From a virus, in the IMG/VR virus record IMGVR_UViG_3300025646_000426, positions 1 through 22,285 of that record: 22,285 bases of DNA. The stretch is one strand, 5' to 3'. Position numbers and translations under genes: made by a program. The notes beneath the pieces are model-generated. The model saw nothing but the letters and a program-made list of their open reading frames with translations. It had not been told where the DNA came from and searched no databases. Shown piece after piece: positions 165 through 6,515 of this stretch (its first letter is position 1; each line of letters opens with the position of its first letter).

Positions 165-343
165 AACCACTAACACCAGAACACGCCACAGAAAACAATT
201 TTACACCGATTGACTACGTGAAGTATTTTAAACCTGATTGGAGCGATGAAGCTTGTTTTGATTTATTAATGGAAGAAACTAGCTATCCTTTTGACTTTGA
301 AATAATGATAAAACAATTAAACAACAAATTTTGTATAAAATGA
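161..343 (+). CDS. Small hypothetical protein, 60 aa
   Basis: The ATG at 161 overlaps the preceding stop (ATGA), and the stop at 341-343 overlaps the ATG of the following gene in the same way, so the three + strand genes form one coupled unit. The product is acidic and soluble, with Asp/Glu-rich helices around DEACFDLLMEET and no membrane segment or visible motif. Small proteins of this style are common beside replication genes in Bacteroidota phages, but I cannot assign a function. Confidence 0.6.
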   Translation: MKPLTPEHATENNFTPIDYVKYFKPDWSDEACFDLLMEETSYPFDFEIMIKQLNNKFCIK

Positions 344-648
344 TACACCCACAAATTTATGTAGGCTTAAAATTAAAGCCGAAACAAGTCAATTTAATAT
401 CCATTTTTGAAATGGTATGCGAAAAGTTAAACGTACACCCAAAGGAAGTTAAAGGACGCACCCGATTTGAAGAAATTGTAAGGGCTCGAATTGTTTACTC
501 AATCTTAGCACTTAACAACGGTTATACTTTGCGAGAAGTTGGGGAGCTAATCAACCGCCACCACGCTAGTATTATTCATTATAAAGATGAATTCAAATAC
601 ATGAAGTATAACCCACGACTAGAGGAAGATTATCACAAATGTATTTAA
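340..648 (+). CDS. DnaA domain IV-like DNA-binding protein
   Basis: This 102-aa protein resembles only the C-terminal DNA-binding domain (domain IV) of the replication initiator DnaA. The helix-turn-helix region contains RARIVYSILALNN (about residues 48-60), then GYTLREVGELI (61-71) and NRHHASIIHY (72-81). These align with the DnaA pattern ARQIAMYL, SLxxIG and GRDHTTVxHA. The AAA+ ATPase domain is absent. In the signature the acidic residue before the conserved His is replaced by His and the following Thr by Ala, so the DNA target may differ from a normal DnaA box. I prefer the ATG at 340, which overlaps the upstream TGA, over the in-frame TTG at 331. The gene converges on the DUF5675 gene and their stop codons overlap. 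A replication or regulatory role is inferred. Confidence 0.7.
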   Translation: MIHPQIYVGLKLKPKQVNLISIFEMVCEKLNVHPKEVKGRTRFEEIVRARIVYSILALNNGYTLREVGELINRHHASIIHYKDEFKYMKYNPRLEEDYHKCI

Positions 649-1031
649 AACCAATTTTCAATCTTTAATTTAAACGGTTGATTTTTAAGAATTTCATCAA
701 CTAAGGCGTGTGCCTTTCTGCTTTGCATGATTGTTTTTTGTTCCGTCACTTCCATACCTAAAGCAATGCACCCATTTAACTGACTTGAATAGTTAGCTGG
801 GTGTATTCTTATACCTGCCCGGCCACGTACGCCCCTAACCTCGTACAACATCGTTTTAAATTTCGGCGAATATGTTTTTAAAACATTGTAAAATCCGTCG
901 GGAATACAGGAAACCATTGGCGTATTATCAACCCACCCGCGTTCTAAAGTATGTAACTCAATATCCCCGATATGTAACTTGCCCAACGTTAAATTTGCGT
1001 CGGTGTAGTATCTAATTATTATCGCCTCCAA
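645..1031 (-). CDS. DUF5675 family protein, putative lysis-associated enzyme
   Basis: The 128-aa protein matches DUF5675 from end to end: the N-terminal strand IIRYYTDANLTLGKL, a LERGW segment, SCIPDGFYNVLKT, SPKFK, and the core IRIHPANYSSQLNGCIALG. The conserved His (about residue 76) followed by Gly-Cys-Ile recalls the catalytic layout of L,D-transpeptidases (His, then S-x-GC-I/V), but the spacing is shorter and homology is not shown. It is the last gene of the lysis cassette, so a peptidoglycan-related activity is plausible. The start is unusual: the only standard start giving the full N-terminus is TTG at 1031, inside the end of the holin-like gene (20-bp overlap). A GGAGG lies just after it, which would suit initiation at a nearby non-standard ATA/ATT codon. 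The stop overlaps the stop of the opposing + strand gene. Confidence 0.75.
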   Translation of the reverse strand: MEAIIIRYYTDANLTLGKLHIGDIELHTLERGWVDNTPMVSCIPDGFYNVLKTYSPKFKTMLYEVRGVRGRAGIRIHPANYSSQLNGCIALGMEVTEQKTIMQSRKAHALVDEILKNQPFKLKIENWF

Positions 1032-1275
1032 TATCTTTTATTTTTTCGGTTAAATTTTTGGCAACGTAAACGCCAACAATTAAGATAATAGAACCGCCGA
1101 CAATTTCAAACCAACTTTGATTGATTGCTCCGTCTGTAATTAGTGTTACGCCTGAGGACATTAACACGCCACCGCCACCCATTTGCACGATGCCTTTTGT
1201 TTTAGTCTTTGTATCGCTTTGTTTTAAAGCCTTAATAACCTCAATCGGGTTAATTATTTTTAGTAAATTTCTCAT
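1012..1275 (-). CDS. Putative holin, two transmembrane helices
   Basis: This 87-aa protein has a basic N-terminus (LKIINPIEVIKALKQ, then a TKTKTK stretch), a glycine-rich hydrophobic segment at about residues 32-50 (GGGGVLMSSGVTLITDG), a short polar turn, and a second hydrophobic helix at about 55-74 (WFEIVGGSIILIVGVYVA). It ends in a charged tail. Size, two predicted membrane spans, and position between the amidase and DUF5675 genes fit a class II-type holin that would permeabilise the inner membrane. Holins are diverse and I cannot name a family. The ATG at 1275 overlaps the TGA of the PAS gene (ATGA), so its translation is probably coupled to the PAS protein. Confidence 0.65.
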   Translation of the reverse strand: MRNLLKIINPIEVIKALKQSDTKTKTKGIVQMGGGGVLMSSGVTLITDGAINQSWFEIVGGSIILIVGVYVAKNLTEKIKDIGGDNN

Positions 1276-1667
1276 ATATTTCTACATGTACAAACTAAGT
1301 AATTATTAGGCAACAAAGTTAAATAAACTTCCTCTTTTACTTCATCGCCATTTTTTGCGTAACCTATATATTTGCCGTTCCATTTGCCATTTGCAAAGAT
1401 AATAGGAAAAACGATTGTTTTAAAATATTCAACATCATTAGGCTTATATAACACTTCCCACGTTTTGCCAATCAACTCGTTAACCGTATAACCAAACATT
1501 TCTGCATGAGCTTCGTTAATATAAATGTACTCGCCATTTTCGTTAAGTATGGCAATGCCCTCGTGGCTGGTATTAATTGCCAACCTTAGCAACTCATTTT
1601 GTTTAAATAACAAGCTAATTTTATCGCTTAAAGTTTTGATTTCTTCAATGCTACTTAAAGATTTCAT
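1272..1667 (-). CDS. Stand-alone PAS domain protein within the lysis cassette
   Basis: The 131-aa protein starts with a helical, coiled-coil-like segment (about 1-27), followed by one complete PAS fold (about 28-131). Typical PAS features are visible: AINTSHEGIAILNENGEYIYIN, then A-x-x-M-F-GYTVNELIGK (about 55-67), W and the FKTIVFPIIFANGKWNG helix/strand region, KNGDEVKEEVYLTLL, and a last strand YLVCTC with two cysteines. There is no kinase, cyclase, HTH or other output domain. PAS domains sense small ligands, redox state, light or oxygen, or act as dimerisation modules. Placement between a membrane-anchored coiled-coil gene (1-bp gap) and the holin-like gene (ATGA overlap) suggests that the protein acts in lysis control, perhaps by binding one of its neighbours. 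The ligand and role are unknown. The PAS assignment itself is strong. Confidence 0.85.
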   Translation of the reverse strand: MKSLSSIEEIKTLSDKISLLFKQNELLRLAINTSHEGIAILNENGEYIYINEAHAEMFGYTVNELIGKTWEVLYKPNDVEYFKTIVFPIIFANGKWNGKYIGYAKNGDEVKEEVYLTLLPNNYLVCTCRNI

Positions 1668-1668
1668 A

Positions 1669-1995
1669 CTAAATTTGTTTTAAAATCCAAGAAATTATAA
1701 AGCCGACAACTAATTCAATAGCGATTAATAACCCTATTGCTTTGGACCACTTATTTTTTTGTTCGTATAATTCGTCTTTAGCCTCTTTCATTTGTCGGGG
1801 CGACCATGTTTCGGTTACCTCTTTTTGCCAAACTTTTATATCTTGAATTTCTTTCTCGGTTGTGTGCACCTTAGCAATGTCACGGCGCAAACCTTCAAAT
1901 TTTAAATCAATATCCGCCTTTAGTTTGTCGATTGCATTTCTGTTGCGCTCTAACTCGTTTAAAATTAGCTTTGTGAAATCGTCAATTTCTTTCAT
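1669..1995 (-). CDS. Coiled-coil protein with C-terminal membrane anchor (XhlA-like)
   Basis: The 108-aa product has a long charged helical region (about 1-80, with heptad-like spacing of Leu/Ile) and one hydrophobic segment near the C-terminus (about 86-104, IGLLIAIELVVGFIISWIL) followed by KQI. This layout matches XhlA-like phage membrane proteins that help endolysin export or cell lysis, though the sequence match is general, not diagnostic. A different accessory role, such as an antiholin or membrane anchor for the PAS protein, is possible. The ATG at 1995 overlaps a TGA that ends a remnant copy of the 3' end of the gene at 2507-2923. In the assumed ancestral arrangement this gene followed that one directly. 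Confidence 0.55.
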   Translation of the reverse strand: MKEIDDFTKLILNELERNRNAIDKLKADIDLKFEGLRRDIAKVHTTEKEIQDIKVWQKEVTETWSPRQMKEAKDELYEQKNKWSKAIGLLIAIELVVGFIISWILKQI

Positions 1996-2033
1996 TTTAT
2001 TTTCCTAATCGCTTTAAATATGCTTATGTATTA
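1993..2033 (-). repeat. Direct repeat copy A: remnant of the 3' end of the 2507-2923 gene
   Basis: These 41 bases match 2508-2548 with only a few differences. Read on the - strand, they encode (after the amidase stop codon) YISIFKAIRKIK followed by TGA. The intact gene at 2507-2923 ends YMSIFKAIRKIK. The remnant stays in frame and its TGA overlaps the ATG of the 1669-1995 gene, exactly as the intact copy's TGA overlaps the amidase ATG. It now serves only as an untranslated spacer between the amidase and the next gene. Confidence 0.9.
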
Positions 2034-2510
2034 ATATATATAATTGCCAATTTCTTCCTTTACGAATTTCTTTACATCAAAGTTAGGACAAGTTTTTCTT
2101 TTATCTAAATCCGTATGTCCAAAAAAATGTTCTTGACTTAATATTTTTCTGTCTATTAACTCTACTATCAAATACGATAAAGTTTTTTTCTGTTCATCAG
2201 TTCTTTCATCTTTACCTTTAAATCCACCAATTAAACAAATACCTAAGTTACCAGTATTAAATCCTTTTACGTGCGCTCCTGTTTTATTTATATCTCTTCC
2301 TATTTGTACATTACCATTAGGTAAAATAACTAAATGATAACCAATTTCTTTAAACCCTCTTTGTTTGTGCCACAATTCAATTTGTTCTGCTTTATCTCCC
2401 CTATTAACAGGACTATCACTTACATGAATTGTGCAACGTGTTAACTTTTGTCTTATAGTAGGAAATGTTTTTAAAAACTCTTCTAATGTAAAAATTTCAA
2501 ACTTTGTCAT
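2031..2510 (-). CDS. Endolysin: N-acetylmuramoyl-L-alanine amidase (Amidase_2 / T7 lysozyme type)
   Basis: This 159-aa single-domain enzyme should cut the bond between N-acetylmuramic acid and L-alanine in peptidoglycan. The first zinc ligand is His29 in TIHVSDSP. Tyr58 lies in GYHLVILPNG. The second and third ligands are His132 (GHTDLD) and Cys141 (KTCPNFD), with Lys139 two residues before the Cys as in T7 lysozyme. GRDINKTGAHVKGFNTGNLG is the usual central loop. There is no signal peptide, so release needs the holin system. The ATG overlaps the upstream TGA as ATGA. The gene is bracketed by 41-bp direct repeats and its DNA looks more AT-rich than the head and tail genes, which suggests insertion of this gene into an existing cassette. 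Confidence 0.92.
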   Translation of the reverse strand: MTKFEIFTLEEFLKTFPTIRQKLTRCTIHVSDSPVNRGDKAEQIELWHKQRGFKEIGYHLVILPNGNVQIGRDINKTGAHVKGFNTGNLGICLIGGFKGKDERTDEQKKTLSYLIVELIDRKILSQEHFFGHTDLDKRKTCPNFDVKKFVKEEIGNYIY

Positions 2511-2923
2511 TTTATTTTTCTAATCGCTTTAAATATGCTCATGTATTCGGTTAATTCTCTTACGTTTCCTTTCTTTTTATGTTGGTTTTTGTATTTAAGT
2601 GCCCACGCCAACCGAACGCCGTAATAACGTTTGTAGGCTATGTATTTGCCCAAACCGCGTCTTAACATCATTTCAAGGAATATTTTGTCCGATACCTTAC
2701 CCCCGCGTCCTGTTTTCCAATGAAAATCATGCACAAAGCAATCAAAAACATAAAAATCGTGGTGCAATTCAGCAACCGCCGTGCAACCGTCATAATCGTG
2801 CATAAAATCCCAATCGTTGGAATATACTGCCTCTTCAATTAAACGGTAATGTATAGCGTCTAAGTTACAATTTTTCGAGTGCTCGAATAAGCTGTCTATT
2901 ATTTCGCTTCGTGTTCTATTCAT
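2507..2923 (-). CDS. Hypothetical protein, weakly DUF1353-like, first gene of the lysis cassette
   Basis: The protein is 138 aa from the ATG at 2923. An in-frame TTG at 2950 exists but lies inside the predicted promoter and adds only a hydrophobic stub. Visible elements are DYDGCTAVAELHHDFYVFDCF, VHDFHWKTGRGGKVSDKIF and YYGVRLAWALKYKN. The His-Asp-Phe followed by an Asp-containing helix and a Tyr-x-x-Val-Arg-x-x-W end recalls DUF1353 phage proteins, which often sit beside tail and lysis genes, but I am not certain of the family. Several His, Asp and Cys residues could bind metal. Its 3' end is duplicated downstream of the amidase gene. Confidence 0.65.
   Translation of the reverse strand: MNRTRSEIIDSLFEHSKNCNLDAIHYRLIEEAVYSNDWDFMHDYDGCTAVAELHHDFYVFDCFVHDFHWKTGRGGKVSDKIFLEMMLRRGLGKYIAYKRYYGVRLAWALKYKNQHKKKGNVRELTEYMSIFKAIRKIK
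2508..2548 (-). repeat. Direct repeat copy B: intact 3' end of the 2507-2923 gene
   Basis: This is the partner of 1993-2033. The segment encodes the last residues of the upstream gene and includes the base pairs of the ATGA junction with the amidase start. The offset between copies is 515 bp, which corresponds to one amidase gene plus the junction. One difference changes Met to Ile in the remnant; another is silent. The in-frame relation of both copies to their downstream ATG shows a duplicated gene junction and argues against chance similarity. Confidence 0.9.
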
Positions 2924-3396: not shown

Positions 3397-4225
3397 TTCT
3401 TCCTAATATTGTTTGAAATTGTTGAACTATATCATAAAATAAAGCTTGTTCCACATTACTCATTCCATTACCAGCACTAGCAAATGCACATTGTTTAGTC
3501 GTATATGTTAATGGCGTTCCGTTGTTGTTATACGATGCTAAATATATTGGTGCAGTTGATTTTAAAATAGCTAAATTTACTGTATTTTGGTTTAAAATAG
3601 TTTTATTTTTTAAAATTTGTCGAAGTGTATTACTTTGAAAATTAGCCATAAATAACCCTGTGCTATCTGTCGTCCCAATATAAGTTGGTTGATTAGTTTC
3701 AGAATTTGCAAAAGCGCCTTGCGTTCTGTTTCCCGCATCTCTAATTTGTAAATAAGAAAAAGGTGCAGAGCCAAAACTATTCGACCCCATTATTAATTCA
3801 CTCGCTGTCTGTGCGTTTGTTCTTGAATAATAACTAAAATGGGCGTTATCTGTACCACTTATATTACTGGGAATAAATCCAGTAGTTGCATAAGTATTTG
3901 TCCCATTAGGAGTTGCGCCACTAGTAGAGTGCGTCCACCCACCAAAAAAAGTTAATTGGTATAAACTTGGATTTATAAGGTTATAGCTGTGCCTTGTAGC
4001 ATCGCCCCCGACAAATGGATAAATAAAATTAAATTTATTAATCAACTCATTATCTACCAACTGTTTTACCAAGTATCTAATAGCTTCTTGCTGTGTTGGG
4101 TTGGTTATATTGGCAACTTGAATAAATAGTTCGCCTTGTGCGTATGGGTTAATTCCAGCAATGCTACTGCCAACATTGAAAATTTTATCAGTTCCAACTT
4201 TGAAAAATTTAGTTTCTATTGCCAT
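3389..4225 (-). CDS. Putative receptor-binding / distal tail protein (LamG-like)
   Basis: This is a 278-aa protein. After an N-terminal helical part (about 1-70) comes a beta-rich region beginning YQLTFFGGWTHSTSGATPNG and continuing NTYATTGFIPSNISG and NAHFSYYSRTN, a pattern seen in concanavalin/LamG-like domains of Bacteroidota phage tail proteins. The end, MSNVEQALFYDIVQQFQTIL, resembles the common C-terminal helix of such proteins, which may trimerise. A role in binding host surface glycans follows from family and position near the end of the tail module. The gene overlaps the end of the upstream fibre gene by 10 bp. Its DNA is more AT-rich than the core tail genes, as expected for frequently exchanged host-range genes. 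Confidence 0.65.
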   Translation of the reverse strand: MAIETKFFKVGTDKIFNVGSSIAGINPYAQGELFIQVANITNPTQQEAIRYLVKQLVDNELINKFNFIYPFVGGDATRHSYNLINPSLYQLTFFGGWTHSTSGATPNGTNTYATTGFIPSNISGTDNAHFSYYSRTNAQTASELIMGSNSFGSAPFSYLQIRDAGNRTQGAFANSETNQPTYIGTTDSTGLFMANFQSNTLRQILKNKTILNQNTVNLAILKSTAPIYLASYNNNGTPLTYTTKQCAFASAGNGMSNVEQALFYDIVQQFQTILGRNV

Positions 4226-5322
4226 ATTTTTGAAACTTTAATATGAATATCAATATTCGCACTATTCCAACTCCCCGAACTTATATATAAATTCTGTGCT
4301 GTTGTAATACTAAAAAAAGTTGTTCCCAAAGGTGCTAAAACTAAAGCATTTGCACCAATTACTAAGGCGTTAACTACATCAGTACCTCCAGCAGTTGTAC
4401 CCACGTTAACCGTAACCGAATTTGCTGTATTATTCTGAAACGCAATAGTATCAACGTTAAATTTAGCCTTTATACTTGAAGATAAACCGCTAATATCTAA
4501 CAAAGCAAGTGTTTTATCGGCCGTTAATCCCGTTTCTTTAAGTATATTATAAACTTCAACAGCTTCAAACTCTTGCACTTCATTACTAGCACCAAAACCA
4601 ATTATACTGCCCTCTGTACCTGTTAATTCAGTTGCAAACCCGTTGCTATCTCCTGTTAATAGTTTGTTTTCGGCTATTTTTAAATCTACTTCATCGCTAC
4701 CATTTACGCCAAATCTATTAATATTACTTTCTTTCAAAGCTGTACTACTTAAATCTACTTGCGTTTCTTCAGCAACAGCGTCATCAACCGCTTCTAAGTA
4801 ACCGCTAAACCTTAGTTTATTACGTTTTGTTAATGGACTTACATCAACACCATTGTAAATATTTTGCCCCGCATTATCTAAAGCAGTTTGCAAATCTGTT
4901 TGGTCGGATAAAGTGCCCGTAATTGAACCCCAAACAGGCGGAATTGCGAACTCTACCCAATCAGTTGTAAATCTGTAATATTTATTTTCGGTTAAATTAT
5001 AGCCAAAATAACCCGCTGTTGGTGTAACTGCAACGGGTACACCATCGAAAAATCGTACAATATCATTTTCAACTGCACTCCCCCAATCAGCATCAACCGT
5101 TCCCGCTCCTACCAATACATAAACGTGATTGTTGGTGGTCGTTGGCGGTGCTAATGTTGGGTCGGCAAAGTCTATAAACGTGCCTATATTAATGTTATCT
5201 ACATAACGACTTTCGCCCCTTTCATCACGTATTAACTTGCTGTTGTTAGTTGCGTCGGTAAACCCTTTAGGCGTGTGCTTATTGCTTTCTGTTGAATTTC
5301 TATGTAGATTTGATAGTGACAT
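4216..5322 (-). CDS. Tail fibre-like protein
   Basis: This is a 368-aa protein of fibre character: Ser/Thr/Asn/Gly-rich, no cysteine and few charged helices. The segment WGSITGTLSDQTDLQTALD (about 131-149) is a motif widespread in phage tail fibres. Before it, NHVYVLVGAGTVDADWG and YFGYNLTENKYYRFT look like short beta-strand modules. The last 100 residues (from about TLALLDISGLSSSI) form a beta-rich domain with VTVNVGTTAGGTDVV and could be the tip. It probably extends from the tail to contact the host and works with the next two gene products. Assignment to fibre is good; the receptor is unknown. Confidence 0.75.
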   Translation of the reverse strand: MSLSNLHRNSTESNKHTPKGFTDATNNSKLIRDERGESRYVDNINIGTFIDFADPTLAPPTTTNNHVYVLVGAGTVDADWGSAVENDIVRFFDGVPVAVTPTAGYFGYNLTENKYYRFTTDWVEFAIPPVWGSITGTLSDQTDLQTALDNAGQNIYNGVDVSPLTKRNKLRFSGYLEAVDDAVAEETQVDLSSTALKESNINRFGVNGSDEVDLKIAENKLLTGDSNGFATELTGTEGSIIGFGASNEVQEFEAVEVYNILKETGLTADKTLALLDISGLSSSIKAKFNVDTIAFQNNTANSVTVNVGTTAGGTDVVNALVIGANALVLAPLGTTFFSITTAQNLYISSGSWNSANIDIHIKVSKIWQ

Positions 5323-5324
5323 TG

Positions 5325-5813
5325 TTAGAAATTAAAATATGTAAATTCAGGATATAGCACTATTTTAGTCGCATCGAAGTCGGGATAGTCAACCGTATTA
5401 TTTAGTAAAAAATTACCCAACTGCTTTTGATAATGGAAACATTTTTCATATAAAAAAAACGCTTGTTTACGCTCATTCTCTTTTGCTACGTTGGAATAAT
5501 CTGTGCGGTTTTCCATTAGCCCCTGATTTTCCGCTTGTGTTTGGATATTGCCCACAACCGAACGGTATGCAGTGCCATAACATACAATAAACTTAATATA
5601 TCTATCGTAGATAATTTGATTTTCTGCGCTTAACGGTAAAGTTTCAAAATCGTCTAAAAAGGAGTAATACAATTCCTCGGTTAATAGATTTTTTAAATAT
5701 ATTTCTTGACAGTATAAAATTTCCCTATCAAACCAAAACGGATCAATAGACTGGTCAAAGGTACAAACCTCAAGGATATTACTACTCGTAACTAATTTTG
5801 TCGTGGTGGCCAT
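5325..5813 (-). CDS. DUF6712-like phage structural protein
   Basis: The protein has 162 aa and is mostly alpha-helical. Features resembling DUF6712 proteins are the opening with short repeated strands (LVTSSNILEVCTFDQSID), REILYCQEIYLKNLLTEELY, the central YIKFIVCYGTAYRSVVG, and the terminal YEKCFHYQKQLGNFL followed by a YPDF segment. Such proteins resemble head-tail connectors but their exact place in the virion is not established. Here the gene lies between the tube-like gene and the fibre genes, far from the portal, which would fit a tail-tip or adaptor role better. The ATG at 5813 lies inside the 3' end of the 50-aa ORF. Confidence 0.6.
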   Translation of the reverse strand: MATTTKLVTSSNILEVCTFDQSIDPFWFDREILYCQEIYLKNLLTEELYYSFLDDFETLPLSAENQIIYDRYIKFIVCYGTAYRSVVGNIQTQAENQGLMENRTDYSNVAKENERKQAFFLYEKCFHYQKQLGNFLLNNTVDYPDFDATKIVLYPEFTYFNF

Positions 5814-5934: not shown

Positions 5935-6515
5935 TATGCACCAAAGCTTACAGATGTACCTGTTGCACCGTCTTCAACCGTAATAGTTCCAATGAACTCT
6001 CTAGTTAATTCAGTACCAGCACCAACCAAAGTTAACATATAACCATTTTGTCCGTTTACCGTAGCCTCTAACATTTGAGCTGTAGTACCCTTTAAAAATG
6101 CGTCGCCACCGATTTTTTTATCGTAGCCAAATACTAAAGCTTGTTTGTCAGTACCCGCACTCTCGTAAGTTTCAACGATTGCAACCGTACCACGAACAGC
6201 ATCTAACTGAGCTAATACCTCAGCTTTAGTCTTGTTTAATTTCGGGATAAACAACTCAATAGTGTGAGTATATCTTACACCACCGTTGTCTTTGTTTGCT
6301 TCCGTAGCAATGGATTTAGTTTCAAATCTACCCATGTACTCCACAAATTTAGCACTATCAACGGTTGTAATTCCTGTAATAGTGTGCGCTGGAGAAACGC
6401 CAAATGTAACAGACGCCACTTGTTTATCTGCTACCATAAAAATTCTTGACAAACCACCGTTTGCAGTTTCGTCGGCACAAGTTACCGATAAGTTAGAAGT
6501 TATTGAACAACTCAT
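5934..6515 (-). CDS. Probable major tail tube protein
   Basis: This 193-aa beta-rich protein has two early cysteines (MSCSITSNLSVTC), strands such as VASVTFG and TITGITTVDS, a helix KLNKTKAEVLAQLDAVRG, and a final part with NGYMLTLVGAGTELTREFIG. The size, Gly/Thr/Val-rich beta pattern and position next to the tape measure gene fit a tail tube subunit, which would stack as rings around the tape measure. No decisive motif can be read by eye. It is the first gene after a 48-bp gap that holds a TAACTTTG promoter-like octamer, and it may be expressed separately at a high level. It lies downstream of the tape measure gene, not upstream as is usual. Confidence 0.55.
   Translation of the reverse strand: MSCSITSNLSVTCADETANGGLSRIFMVADKQVASVTFGVSPAHTITGITTVDSAKFVEYMGRFETKSIATEANKDNGGVRYTHTIELFIPKLNKTKAEVLAQLDAVRGTVAIVETYESAGTDKQALVFGYDKKIGGDAFLKGTTAQMLEATVNGQNGYMLTLVGAGTELTREFIGTITVEDGATGTSVSFGA

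Follow-up and report, generated by a model that had tools for sequence, protein, structure and literature searches.

How a phage times lysis has been worked out in detail for only a few systems, and sensing of the cell's state is best documented for T4-type lysis inhibition. Could the gene for a solitary PAS domain in the lysis cassette of an uncultured phage serve such sensing, and on which protein would its product act? If it controlled lysis, it would connect a metabolic or redox cue directly with the membrane lesion, in a way that can be tested. We analysed a window, i.e. the whole 22,285-nt stretch of viral DNA, whose minus strand carries the following cassette in this order.

2507..2920, minus strand: 137-aa DUF1353-like protein, a weak match below the cut-off; upstream cassette border in several relatives
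2487..2547, no strand: second copy (84%) of a 61-nt direct repeat, spanning the amidase gene start and the DUF1353-like gene end
2031..2510, minus strand: N-acetylmuramoyl-L-alanine amidase (endolysin), PHROG 822 lysis, E 1.3e-40
1972..2032, no strand: first copy of the 61-nt direct repeat, spanning the CC108 start and the amidase gene end
1669..1995, minus strand: CC108, 108 aa, a coiled-coil part (predicted to be cytosolic) and one C-terminal transmembrane (TM) helix, residues 87-105
1272..1667, minus strand: PAS protein, 131 aa with ATG start, one complete PAS domain and an N-terminal helix (residues 7-31)
1012..1275, minus strand: 87-aa two-TM holin-like protein, whose gene overlaps the PAS gene; an inconstant partner
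645..1031, minus strand: DUF5675 protein, E 1.3e-26, the next cassette gene

The PAS gene lay where the preliminary description had placed it, between a coiled-coil protein gene and a holin-like gene with an ATGA overlap at 1272-1275, and the amidase and DUF5675 genes of the lysis cassette lay close by. The scan for promoters and terminators gave chance-level results only. The direct repeat flanks the amidase gene on both sides, its second copy being where the DUF1353-like gene naturally ends, and in the related locus L003 the DUF1353-like gene leads directly to CC108; the amidase gene therefore looks inserted with a short duplication. Beside the lysis end, on the opposite strand (331-648, plus strand), a small protein with a DnaA C-terminal DNA-binding domain (Pfam E 1.7e-10) was encoded; DnaA-like genes are annotated in Cellulophaga phages as well.

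The 131-aa product was confirmed as a genuine, stand-alone PAS protein. Five Pfam PAS families exceeded the cut-off (including PAS_9, E 1.6e-10; PAS, 1.9e-10; PAS_8, 2.1e-9), and NCBIfam TIGR00229 sensory_box matched residues 23-129 with E 4.5e-13 and 49.4 bits (cut-off 22.9). Structure prediction of the protein alone, which the preliminary description had named as a check that could overturn its reading, returned a PAS fold. The AlphaFold2 model, obtained with a seven-sequence alignment as input, had a mean pLDDT of 84 and a pTM of 0.71, and its elements (helix 7-31, two strands, three helices, helix 76-93, three strands) followed the PAS order, with a five-stranded antiparallel sheet and helices C-F. 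Confidence was lower, about 60-70, in helix 7-31, which precedes the domain. VIA-align gave Z ≥ 2 for 993 of the 994 PDB chains compared with the model, most matches covering residues 34-131, and the top match was 3lyx (Z 15.6, rmsd 2.9, 106 residues); Foldseek also grouped the model with PAS domains. Solved sensor PAS domains matched the protein by sequence too. The chain stops at 'CRNI', where cellular relatives have 'CRDIT..RK' or similar, followed by kinase modules. PAS domains usually end here, and the earlier statement that an output domain is missing is therefore correct. The fold and S-box sequence are those of sensor-kinase PAS domains (2r78, 3lyx, NifL 2gj3, MmoS 3ewk, DosP), whereas those domains belong to kinases, cyclases or regulators with several domains and the phage domain stands alone.

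Neither a kinase nor a receiver accompanied the domain in cis or within the same phage record: HATPase_c and Response_reg had no match in eight phage records, some of them fragments, while the controls were positive in 12-14 of 14 genomes. Each of seven phage records had exactly one PAS match. A candidate explanation of the domain as the remnant of a phage kinase was set aside, no kinase or receiver having been found in the records. As to cofactors, the LOV cysteine (NCRFLQ motif, helix E) was absent, the aligned segment IGKTWEVLYK containing no Cys, and the haem-ligating His of FixL/DosP (helix F) was absent from helix 76-93 (PNDVEYFKTIVFPIIFAN), which contains no His. The domain resembles the FAD-type PAS domains 2gj3 (NifL) and 3ewk (MmoS) in both fold and sequence. 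A phage-specific redox pair formed by the C-terminal VCTC cysteines, as had been suggested, was weakened by comparison with five close cellular PAS relatives, themselves found via conserved motifs: C126 occurred in all five and C128 in two, the cyanobacterial ones. The cysteines go back largely to PAS relatives in cells.

Among the cellular PAS domains found, the nearest had about 40% identity and belonged to cyanobacterial and proteobacterial multidomain histidine kinases, and 22 alignment columns were invariant between the phage PAS proteins and the five cellular sensor PAS domains. The PAS matches in L023-L027 formed a subgroup with HAEMFGY, W..LY and C-terminal Cys (ICVC, ICIC, LCTT, VCVT); the HAEMFGY / W..LY subgroup is common to these phages and to cyanobacterial and proteobacterial hybrid kinases. 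IMG/VR contained six full PAS relatives with 73-95% identity and two end fragments, L014 (PAS end) and L013 (CC108 and PAS start). Scanning with a broader alignment of PAS sequences added no viral loci beyond the L014 contig, and the cultured phage records searched held no relatives of PAS, CC108 or the 87-aa protein. The PAS gene is under purifying selection and is not a chance ORF, because its dN/dS was 0.04-0.12 in comparisons with unsaturated dS; the corresponding values for CC108 were 0.02-0.19, and the CC108 proteins of L004 and L006 were identical.

The genomic location of the relatives, a further check that had been proposed, strengthened the placement in a lysis cassette. All PAS homologues found in viral contigs lay in lysis regions and at no other genome location, and the pair stood among endolysin, holin-like and spanin-like genes at every full locus. 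CC108 preceded PAS in all relatives whose contig covers that region, with a gap of 1 nt between the two genes at every locus. In four blastn comparisons the similarity set in at most 6 bp from where the pair starts and broke off no more than about 25 bp from the far end: window/L002 (similarity 4001-4734, pair 4006-4729), L002/L003 (3018-3752, 3024-3747), L004/L005 (5668-6433, 5670-6414) and L005/L006 (5668-6420, 5670-6396). The window and L002 also have the upstream amidase gene in common, as a separate block. Within each of the two clades the pair was kept and the flanks varied: downstream lie the holin-like and DUF5675 genes in the window and a spanin-like gene in L002, while in the other clade L004 and L006 have amidase and spanin-like genes and L005 and L007 holin-like and M15 peptidase genes. 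The label 'spanin-like' is taken from an N-terminal TM helix and position only. Such a protein of 171-177 aa, with an N-terminal TM, is encoded 3' of PAS at 3726-4256 of L002 and 6432-6944 of L004, in phages that have no 87-aa gene. These data establish CC108-PAS as a two-gene lysis-cassette module that is exchanged as a unit, and the constant partner of PAS is the upstream CC108 and not the 87-aa holin-like gene to which it had been linked. Overall the preliminary description is partly supported, its observation and setting having held and the partner having been corrected.

The 87-aa protein family was present in 14 contigs (13 loci and the window). The slot directly upstream of its gene was occupied by CC108-PAS in five (window, L003, L005, L007, L014) and by a two-TM protein of 64-81 aa in the other nine, and never by both; some of these two-TM proteins weakly matched the PHROG 20 holin profile (E 0.002-0.01). 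The exchange could be delimited between L003 and L016. Identity was 91% up to position 5677 of L003, at the CC108 start, and 88% from position 6400, in the holin-like gene; between these flanks, 722 nt with CC108-PAS in L003 faced 182 nt with a 68-aa two-TM gene in L016. Pair-bearing phages that lack the 87-aa protein encoded another two-TM protein close by (79 aa in L002, 71 aa in L004 and L006). The slot data and these nearby proteins therefore show CC108-PAS in the place of one of the cassette's two small membrane proteins. The swap in close relatives amounts to a natural experiment, in which one cassette exists with and without the sensor.

TM prediction gave one helix for CC108 and none for PAS, and CC108 was richer in K/R before the TM helix than after it. 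CC108 is accordingly predicted to be tail-anchored with its N-terminus inside, which would put the coil on the cytosolic side, as PAS. Its model consisted of two long helices, with moderate confidence. Within residues 8-27 of the PAS N-terminal helix, 15 of 20 residues were invariant, and residues 3-19 of CC108 were highly conserved, between clades about 30% apart. Coiled coils are a common route of signalling for PAS domains. For this reason, and because the genes are inseparable and the PAS N-terminal helix and CC108 residues 1-19 rank with the most conserved stretches, the CC108 coil is the likeliest partner of PAS.

We infer that the PAS protein takes part in the timing of lysis, and propose a mechanism whose contact, topology, ligand and lysis effect are put conditionally. 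CC108 would be anchored in the inner membrane by its tail, the coiled coil facing the cytosol, and the soluble cytosolic PAS protein would use its N-terminal helix to dock on this coil. Any change that the PAS pocket undergoes (a small molecule, redox or cofactor state) would be passed to the coil, as in sensor kinases, and the altered coil would change the assembly of CC108 in the membrane. CC108 would then be a signal-dependent holin partner, an antiholin or accessory holin, that sets the time of endolysin release. The chances that the module senses a signal and sets lysis timing in this way appear to us nearly even. If it does, CC108-PAS would be a natural small-molecule-controlled lysis switch.

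Linkage and replacement would also fit a PAS protein that senses nothing and acts as a fixed adaptor, folding around or stabilising the coil of a CC108 that is itself a holin or accessory. PAS domains are often dimerisation modules, and no cofactor signature was recognised in this one. XhlA-type lysis proteins are small, with an N-terminal coil and a C-terminal TM, and lie beside a holin gene; CC108 has this layout, with a holin-like gene nearby. It did not match the Pfam XhlA family at E up to 1, and we know of no PAS partner of XhlA. A scaffold would not need the 22 columns shared with cellular sensor domains, although folding may explain part of them, and we regard a fixed adaptor as rather unlikely.

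Alternatively, the pair may be directed at the host or at other phages, as a membrane-bound decoy of host PAS signalling or in superinfection exclusion, and lie by the lysis genes through late expression. The PAS relatives are indeed host-type sensor kinases, and small late membrane proteins of this type exist in phages. Against this, the pair occupies the slot that otherwise holds a small membrane protein of holin-like type, and it was found at no other location. PADLOC returned nothing for PAS and, for CC108, only LeoC as a weak match of coiled-coil type (E 0.0066), and a reading as a defence system was rejected on this result. A target outside lysis thus seems improbable.

Direct restraint or release of the 87-aa holin-like protein by PAS was suggested by the ATGA overlap and by their neighbourhood in five contigs. 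Each gene also occurs alone, however: PAS without the 87-aa gene in L002, L004 and L006, and the 87-aa gene without PAS in nine of 14 contigs. Nor is the overlap kept, being formed with a different gene in L002 and missing in L004-L007. The overlap was consequently discarded as the main link of PAS, and direct action on the 87-aa protein is very improbable. That CC108-PAS is a neutral passenger pair, as its rarity in collections (only about nine contigs, all of uncultured phages) might suggest, is hardly credible given the dN/dS of PAS where measurable, the location kept in two clades and the replacement of another cassette gene.

A search of open-licence papers found no PAS protein or gene described in a lysis cassette. 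Like the PAS protein of the CC108 module, VqmA of vibriophage VP882 is a phage-encoded PAS protein tied to the host lysis decision, a receptor that binds DPO and triggers lysis via qtip transcription (PMC8284805). VqmA has a DNA-binding domain, whereas the PAS protein here lacks an output domain and is encoded, next to a membrane partner, within the lysis cassette. In T4, whose holin is T, the antiholins RI (periplasmic) and RIII (cytoplasmic) can time lysis on a signal, and RIII is an earlier example of an antiholin in the cytoplasm (PMC8385771). RI and RIII are not known as PAS proteins and had no sequence match here, and T carries a periplasmic domain and has its TM at the N-terminus, whereas CC108 has its TM at the C-terminus. 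Searches of Pfam, PHROGs and NCBIfam matched neither CC108 nor PAS to a family of holins or antiholins, holins being very diverse.

A possible parallel among cultured phages was indicated by Foldseek against viral models (BFVD), in which the PAS model matched a 172-aa protein of Cellulophaga phage phi18:3 (E 1.2e-3) and a 240-aa protein of phi19:1 (E 3.5e-4), both with probability 1.00 and TM 0.49-0.56. Unique protein length assigned these matches to gp090 and gp108, respectively, and gp090 had homologues of 51-57% identity in phiSM and Ingeline_1. All four proteins are annotated as hypothetical.

39102-39617 of L029: phi18:3 gp090
5703-6422 of L036: phi19:1 gp108
3911-4543 of L034: phiSM gp11
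3935-4534 of L033: Ingeline_1 gene 36

The proteins belong to the unnamed families PHROG 10199 and PHROG 31932. Pfam and profile comparison did not identify them as PAS, and they had no sequence similarity to the window PAS; the gp090 and gp108 families are therefore candidate PAS-like proteins, a lead given by the fold match only. The gp090 family comprises an N-terminal basic stretch, a TM helix, a coil and the PAS-like part. Its gene adjoins the endolysin gene in phi18:3 and phiSM (GH108; M15-type), followed by overlapping spanin-like genes, and the DUF5675 gene in Ingeline_1, while gp108 lies about 1.5 kb before the lysozyme gene in phi19:1, as in Nekkels_1. These proteins thus share with CC108-PAS a membrane-anchored coil and a PAS-like domain in or near lysis genes, but form one chain with an N-terminal TM, and their PAS-like C-terminal part is probably periplasmic. 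A broader proposal may be tentatively drawn, one that we would sooner expect to fail than to hold: CC108-PAS would be a split sensor that works without transcription, the cytosolic PAS sensing a small molecule or redox state and acting through coiled-coil CC108 directly on membrane permeabilisation, and lysis cassettes would have acquired PAS-type domains on at least two occasions, in the cytosol here and probably in the periplasm in the gp090 and gp108 families.

The overlapping gene pairs 3' of the endolysin gene lie at 5156-5437 and 5340-5708 in L034 and at 40900-41181 and 41132-41452 in L029. The second gene of these pairs reads as lipoprotein-like (FSIAC), and a lipoprotein encoded by the second overlapping gene is typical of two-component spanins.
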